From Bacteroidota bacterium (GTDB lineage: Bacteria > Bacteroidota > Ignavibacteria > Palsa-1295), in contig JAUZNX010000002.1 of NCBI GenBank assembly GCA_030706745.1, positions 62,001-126,000 on the forward strand: a DNA stretch of 64,000 nucleotides. Reading direction: 5' to 3'. The number at the start of each line of letters is the position of its first letter. The first letter of the stretch is position 1. The position numbers and the translations under genes are program-made. Under the pieces are notes generated by a model. That model was not told the DNA's origin. It saw nothing but the letters and a program-made list of their open reading frames with translations, and searched no databases. Below, piece by piece: positions 58,260 to 59,328 of this stretch.

Positions 58260-58290
58260 TTGACTTTTCTTATTTATCAATATATATTTG
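58260..58290 (+). promoter_or_regulatory. Bacteroidota-type promoter of the RlpA-like gene
   Basis: TTGAC at 58260-58264 and TATATTTG at 58283-58290 give the best-formed -33/-7 pair in the window. Initiation near 58295 would leave a leader of only about 10 nt, which includes GAAGAAAG before ATG 58305. Confidence 0.65.
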
Positions 58291-58304
58291 TGGTTCGAAG
58301 AAAG

Positions 58305-58709
58305 ATGAACGCTCGAAGAATCGTCATTATCGCTGCTGTTTTGAGTCTCACTTCGGTGGTTCTCAGTTCGTGCGCGGTGCACTCGACAATTCGGGCGGTT
58401 GCGACTCAGGAAGGCCTCGCTTCTTATTATTCGAACGACTTCCAGGGCCGCAGAACCTCGAGCGGTGAGATCTTTGACAATAGTCGTTTTACAGCGGCGC
58501 ACCGCACATATCCGTTTGGGACTGTCGTGCGGGTCACGAATCTTGAAAGTGACGCCGTCGTGACGGTTCGAATTAACGATCGCGGGCCGGTTAAGCCCGA
58601 GCGGATCATCGATCTCAGTTATGCGGCAGCGCAGAAGCTCGGAATTCTTCGAAGCGGCTTGGGCCATGTGAGGATCGATGTCGTGGAATGGGGCCGGCCG
58701 TCATCATGA
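58305..58709 (+). CDS. RlpA-like lipoprotein with double-psi beta-barrel
   Basis: This 134-residue protein starts at ATG 58305; an in-frame TTG at 58260 is part of the promoter. A lipoprotein signal ends in VVLSSC. The mature protein is a single RlpA-type double-psi beta-barrel: GLASYYSNDFQGRRTSSGE, FTAAHRTYPFGTVVRVTN, and VRINDRGPVKPERIIDLSYAAA with the catalytic-type Asp. RlpA proteins cut peptide-free glycan at the septum or bind it. There is no SPOR domain, so it may be recruited differently. It is probably monocistronic. Confidence 0.9.
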   Translation: MNARRIVIIAAVLSLTSVVLSSCAVHSTIRAVATQEGLASYYSNDFQGRRTSSGEIFDNSRFTAAHRTYPFGTVVRVTNLESDAVVTVRINDRGPVKPERIIDLSYAAAQKLGILRSGLGHVRIDVVEWGRPSS

Positions 58710-58724
58710 ATTGTATAAGAGTGG

Positions 58725-58926
58725 GCATGCGGATGTCGAACGGAGCGGTGGCTATGGTTGTCATAGGGGCAAGCTTCCTTAGCGGGAAGCTGGCAGCTAA
58801 CGCTGACGTTTCGTTCGCTCCGCCCCGCGGCGTTCGTCTATAATCCGGACTCTGGGTCTGGACTGAGCTCTCAGGACGAGCGTCGCGGGGCGGAGATTCT
58901 TCCCCCCAATCGACTATGCCGCATGC
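58725..58926. ncRNA. Candidate structured RNA or miniature mobile element, about 200 bp
   Basis: Nested pairing can be drawn by eye. An outer helix joins GCATGCGG (58725-58732) with CCGCATGC (58919-58926), then GTCGA (58735-58739) with TCGAC (58910-58914). It encloses three hairpins: CTATG/CATAG (about 58752-58766), AGCTTCC/GGGAAGCT (about 58772-58791), and a 21-bp arm pair at 58818-58838 and 58875-58895 with only two differences. GCATGCGG is also an 8-bp direct repeat at both ends (58725 and 58921), as a target-site duplication would be. It does not match RNase P, SRP or tmRNA motifs I know. Strand unknown. Confidence 0.45.
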
Positions 58927-59254
58927 GGTATTGCCCTGGCTTTTGCGCAGGTCGTGAAGATTTTTTGAAAAAAGATTCAGAATAGGTGTAACAAAAGTCG
59001 AAATCCGAAGTTATTCGGGTGCCTCCTTAGAACGAGATCGGTACGGCATTCATAAATGTCGGTGGTTTCGGGATGTGGTAGGCTCCTTTGACTGCCAAAG
59101 AAAACCTGTTTTTCGCGCCGCGAGCGATTTGCATCGTATATTTGCACGAGCTTTTACTCTGCGGCAAGCACTTTATCCCACGATAAGGCGCTGCGATAGT
59201 CAGGTGCGTTCGGAGGTGGACAGTGTCCATAGGGCCGGGTGCAAGTGAGGACGA
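58927..59254. other. 328-bp gap between the structured element and tRNA-Arg
   Basis: I see no gene. A short A/T inverted repeat (ATTTTTTGAAAAAAGAT, near 58961) and a TATATTTG box (59137-59144) are the only notable sites. A minus-strand frame at 59027-59365 runs through the tRNA and is not a gene. Confidence 0.5.
59137..59144 (+). promoter_or_regulatory. Bacteroidota-type -7 box (TATATTTG) upstream of tRNA-Arg
   Basis: This exact TAnnTTTG element would start transcription near 59149, about 105 nt before tRNA-Arg. The leader is longer than usual for a tRNA, so either it is processed or the site serves a small RNA between 59149 and 59254. Confidence 0.35.
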
Positions 59255-59328
59255 GCGCCCGTAGTTCAACTGGATAGAACGTTGGATTCCGGTTCCAAAG
59301 GCTGAGGGTTCAAGTCCTTCCGGGCGCG
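59255..59328 (+). tRNA. tRNA-Arg (anticodon CCG)
   Basis: This is a 74-nt cloverleaf: acceptor GCGCCCG/CGGGCGC, D stem GTTC/GAAC, anticodon stem TTGGA/TCCAA with loop TTCCGGT (anticodon CCG), T stem GAGGG/CCTTC with loop TTCAAGT, and discriminator G. CCA is not encoded. Confidence 0.95.

Follow-up and report, generated by a model that had tools for sequence, protein, structure and literature searches.

In the window, the 64,000-nucleotide stretch of DNA analysed here, a gene for an rlpA-like lytic transglycosylase, a conserved structured element, a promoter-like motif (GGTGTAACAAAA...GTTATT) and the gene for tRNA-Arg (CCG) follow one another on one strand, and a gene for a TPR protein comes next (Table 1). 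This order was found in all seven species compared. As judged from the sequences and their predicted folds, the element is very probably a structured RNA, conserved on the plus strand and confined to one genus. It is 178 nt long here and 144 to 181 nt long in the relatives in a seven-species alignment, and it starts 8 nt after the rlpA stop codon here and 8 to 122 nt after it across the seven species.

Table 1. Features of the rlpA to tRNA-Arg interval (positions in the window)
Feature	Position	Strand	Basis or remark
Promoter-like site of rlpA, TTGACT-17-TATATT	58260-58288	+	Housekeeping type
rlpA-like lytic transglycosylase (DPBB_1)	58306-58709	+	Pfam E 1.5e-24 for ORF 58260-58709
Whole conserved structured RNA	58718-58895	+	Block limits in seven-species alignment; fold z in all seven
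Invariant 24-nt 5' block, AGAGUGGGCAUGCGGAUGUCGAAC	58718-58741	+	Identical in 7/7 species; unpaired AGAGUG, then small hairpin P0, then first H1 nucleotides
P0: GGCAU, loop GCGG, AUGUC	58724-58728 / 58733-58737	+	
Alternative pairing, GCGGA with UCCGC	58729-58733 / 58819-58823	+	Predicted, versus UCCGC with 3' arm of H2
Hairpin H1	58737-58817	+	Helices P1-P4, covarying
One-sided 9-nt bulge, UAGGGGCAA	58764-58772	+	Between two stacked H1 helices
Invariant junction, GUUCGCUCCGC	58813-58823	+	
Hairpin H2	58818-58895 (arms 58818-58838 / 58875-58895)	+	Long stem, species-specific sequence, loop freely changing; inverted repeat; covariation
ECF-sigma-like promoter, GGTGTAACAAAA...CCGAAGTTATT	58985-59015	+	Neighbour outside the RNA
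tRNA-Arg (CCG)	59255-59328	+	Neighbour; right end of syntenic interval

Three blocks of the RNA scarcely change. The 5' block and the junction are invariant, and within the bulge of H1 UAGGGGCA is nearly invariant and UNGGGGCA occurs in 7/7 species. The invariant blocks stay fixed even though the adjoining TPR protein shares only 61 to 63% identity with its counterpart in five of the six relatives. Two species, G004 and G002 (loci L006 and L007), carry extra species-specific side hairpins in H1, so the 5' side of this hairpin tolerates large insertions while the bulge stays nearly invariant. In G003 (L004), short tandem repeats of the type AAGTAAGAGGTAAG lie between rlpA and the RNA.

A sequence-only reading of the locus had set the borders at 58725-58926, closed by an outer helix of GCAUGCGG with CCGCAUGC (58919-58926) and flanked by the 8-mer GCATGCGG as a direct repeat that might be a target-site duplication. 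The alignment moves these borders: the conserved element starts 7 nt further upstream and ends about 30 nt before the right border. The 8-mer is indeed repeated in this genome, at 58725-58732 and 58921-58928, but the second copy is missing from 6/6 relatives, as is the outer helix, and both therefore lie outside the conserved structure. Since CCGCATGCGG is a palindrome, a single 10-mer (58919-58928), itself absent from all six relatives, supplies the direct and the inverted copy alike. With its first copy inside the invariant 24-nt block and the other specific to one species, GCATGCGG is not a target-site duplication. Just after H2, positions 58910-58926 hold a near-complement of the invariant 5' block (TCGACTATGCCGCATGC versus GCATGCGGATGTCGA), again in this genome only, which is either chance or a recent inverted copy.

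The nested complementarity that the same reading considered unlikely by chance proved robust. The plus strand of 58725-58926 folds at -113.8 kcal/mol with z = -7.9, and none of 200 dinucleotide shuffles was as good, which puts the fold well beyond chance; the minus strand reaches -94.5 kcal/mol (z = -6.6). Across all seven species the plus-strand fold gave z values of -5.4 to -9.7 against shuffled sequence. The full RNA is more stable on the plus than on the minus strand in each of them, the one exception at the level of parts being H2 of G002, which taken alone is slightly more stable on the minus strand. The 21-bp stem with two differences that had been noted is the stem of H2.

Covariation was examined in seven species, which are all that are known. 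An ungapped alignment of the H2 stems covers 17 pairs and 119 cells, of which 111 are canonical (101 Watson-Crick and 10 G-U), one is A-C and seven are of other kinds; ten of the 17 pairs are altered on both sides with pairing kept. Pairs altered on both sides also number three in P1, four in P4 and, over six species, four in P3. Even between the closest species, G000 and G001, an H2 pair has switched between C-G and A-U, and the loops are unrelated. When the 3' arms of H2 were permuted in 5040 ways, the true assignment alone reached 111 canonical cells, and over the H1 and H2 helices G-U mispairs outnumbered A-C mispairs by 37 to 1 on the plus strand, both counts leaning towards the model, with the H2 register chosen by hand and the helices taken from plus-strand folds. 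The excess of G-U over A-C, together with the better plus-strand fold in all seven species, indicates that the constraint acts on the plus-strand RNA. We regard the RNA structure as strongly supported; its mechanism we infer.

A DNA search found the element once in this genome and once in each of the six other species compared, all Kapabacteria-type MAGs of the same uncultured genus, and neither that search nor a covariance model revealed further copies in the seven genomes. The DNA search of 34 further relatives beyond the genus gave no match. An exact search of a named genome collection with the 21-mer GTGGGCATGCGGATGTCGAAC returned six contigs, which correspond in length to contigs of the six relatives and are labelled as Candidatus Kapaibacterium, Ignavibacteriae or Bacteroidetes MAGs. 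The covariance model, built from the seven copies, recovered the same seven and no others in a family search at E 0.1, and it added no further copy in 391 class genomes or 395 of the phylum, large runs with stricter filters in which weak matches are lost. A search of the 391 class genomes with the 5' block, allowing up to three mismatches, gave outside the genus only two chance-like matches, each with three mismatches and without the junction sequence. The plasmids, phages and viral contigs searched held no match to the RNA. In the sister genera, rlpA, the motif and the tRNA-Arg gene are present and the RNA is absent, about 125 to 200 nt separating the two genes. Because these genera have the same neighbours without the RNA, it was gained in this genus (or lost from the sisters) between older neighbours. 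The sequence-only reading had leaned to a non-autonomous mobile element, with an RNA as its alternative, and had proposed a comparison of copy number and compensatory changes among relatives. That comparison decides for the RNA: the seven species hold single orthologous copies with compensatory changes. One copy per genome, at a fixed place and with no duplication at the borders, led us to reject a MITE or other non-autonomous mobile element.

Known RNA families do not account for the locus. Searches of the window and the seven homologous loci against Rfam 15, at gathering and relaxed thresholds, placed no family at threshold on the element, which agrees with the earlier impression that it resembles no known structured RNA; the only matches there were chance ones, of microRNA type or similar, to the long hairpin. 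Neither 6S (RF00013) nor 6S-Flavo (RF01685) was matched in this genome, or by covariance model at the seven loci, and 6S-Flavo was not detected in the sister genera either. A small open reading frame (ATG CGG ATG TCG AAC ...) runs for about 7 to 38 codons before a stop, a length that varies with the species, as read by eye in the alignment, so the conservation is not coding. An intrinsic terminator was also rejected: a clear U-run follows H2 in only one of the seven species (G005), which argues that H2 is no ordinary terminator of this kind, and a terminator scan of the window lists none there. To our knowledge, the element bears no resemblance to the XerCD dif site. A literature search for an RNA beside rlpA found nothing relevant.

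A promoter-like site precedes rlpA, and the seven-species alignment shows no promoter box at a fixed position upstream of the RNA; cotranscription with rlpA would thus be the simplest reading. A TAnATTTG box lies 435 to 580 nt upstream of the RNA in six of the seven species, and the ECF-like promoter lies 69 to 209 nt downstream of it. Motifs of the GTGTAACAAAA...GAAGTTATT type stand before tRNA-Arg and several other genes, close to likely (possibly leaderless) start codons; they occur in the window, at L060, L061 and L062, and at the sister-genus loci L063-L066 and L030. From its sequence, the motif looks like an ECF-sigma-type promoter conserved across the whole family.

The explanation that we favor, and to which we would give nearly an even chance, is that the plus-strand structured RNA is probably part of the rlpA 3' untranslated region and acts as a regulatory RNA through its 5' block. 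The common ancestor of one Kapabacteria genus would have acquired the RNA, by new origin or by insertion, and its descendants would have kept it as a single copy. It would be transcribed from the plus strand, probably as the 3' part of the rlpA transcript, and would exert its regulatory effect either after release from that mRNA or while still attached to it. In all seven species it lies directly after the coding gene on the same strand, a position expected of sRNAs derived from 3' untranslated regions. The invariant, partly unpaired 5' block would contact a conserved partner, which may be a protein or target mRNAs recognized by base pairing, and the UAGGGGCA bulge may join in this contact. 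A precedent for this mode of action is GibS of Bacteroides (PMC7366714), which has its seed for target mRNAs in a highly conserved, single-stranded 5' region. Against a seed role here, most of the 5' block can also pair within the RNA, which is untypical of a seed. The freely rewritten H2 may be merely a strong 3' end, or an element of processing or stability.

Rather unlikely, but next in order, is a cis-acting two-state switch resembling an attenuator or riboswitch. As modeled, UCCGC would pair with GCGGA before H2 is complete, extending H1, and with H2 afterwards, when the finished 3' arm takes UCCGC and P0 forms. A ligand, a protein or the ribosome, bound to the invariant blocks, would favor one of the two pairings and thereby control where the rlpA mRNA ends or whether transcription runs on towards tRNA-Arg and the TPR gene. 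The predicted folds are consistent with such a course in all seven species: truncated directly behind CUCCGC, the transcript is most stable with GCGGA:UCCGC, and the full RNA folds best with H2 and P0, an arrangement more stable than the first by 0.5 to 9 kcal/mol. CUCCGC is invariant even in G001, G006, G004 and G002, where its partner strand in H2 has drifted or one pair no longer forms; this makes a second partner plausible, and the three invariant blocks within a covarying frame resemble a binding core. The near absence of a U-run after H2, however, speaks against attenuation, and the downstream genes, with an ECF-like promoter of their own, need not rely on read-through. Moreover, GCGGA and UCCGC are the same in all seven species and so offer no covariation for their pairing. 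We consider improbable a further reading, that the RNA represents a new class of two-state regulatory RNA in the rlpA 3'-UTR: its invariant core would detect a ligand or protein and, without a U-tract terminator, would shift UCCGC between pairing with the 5' block and pairing with a hypervariable hairpin. On the present comparison, we would rank the sRNA-like or 3'-UTR-acting reading first and the two-state switch second.

Three further readings fare worse. Single copy, invariant blocks and a size near 180 nt would suit an RNA of an RNA-protein machine, either 6S-like on RNA polymerase or of another ribonucleoprotein, that replaces or supplements a known RNA in the genus, and neither 6S family was detected in this genome. 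6S RNA is defined by an extended open bubble in the middle of a single hairpin, with an arm on either side. Here, however, the element has no such bubble, it is confined to one genus, and the failure to detect 6S-Flavo in the sister genera too leaves no sign of replacement; we think this reading quite improbable. A relic or domesticated MITE-like element, stemming from a single insertion in the genus ancestor, is very unlikely. The empty interval in the sister genera, in which rlpA, the ECF-like promoter and tRNA-Arg remain, would fit an insertion, as would the long inverted repeat of H2, but the end repeats and duplication are not conserved, compensatory changes have been kept on the RNA strand, and neither the copy number of one in seven genomes nor the search of plasmids, phages and viral contigs points to mobility. 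A mobile origin would, in any case, leave the present conservation unexplained. We give hardly any weight to an element acting as DNA, whether as a cruciform or a protein-binding site; the invariant 24-nt block and the long palindromic H2 could be used in that form, but DNA use predicts neither the G-U bias nor the more stable plus-strand fold.

Compared with known systems, the RNA shares with Bacteroidota sRNAs such as GibS (PMC7366714), as they are described, a length of about 145 to 180 nt, a conserved 5' part followed by structured parts, and conservation at the genus level; it differs in having no recognizable promoter of its own, in being far more structured, and in a long hairpin without a U-tract. 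Like the candidate RNAs of comparative genomics (104 motifs in PMC2864571; later pipelines in PMC8040213 and PMC8632094), it is intergenic, sets invariant blocks in covarying helices and has no assigned function; unlike them, it is absent from Rfam 15 by sequence or structure and is restricted to one genus. With 6S and 6S-Flavo it has single copy and similar size in common, but its architecture is different and no covariance model of theirs matched this locus. MITEs and REP-type elements are likewise hairpin-rich short intergenic DNA, whereas this RNA occupies one fixed place in one copy, without terminal repeats or target-site duplication. The RNA belongs among the lineage-specific structured RNAs, a known kind, and is not in the RNA family catalogue.

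A literature search on noncoding RNAs of Kapabacteria found nothing, and such RNAs seem little described in this group. H2 shows well how a hairpin can be constrained in its pairing and yet free in its sequence. The locus illustrates clearly how a lineage-specific RNA was gained between neighbours that are themselves conserved and later became fixed under strong constraint, which allows the origin of the RNA to be assigned to a single branch.
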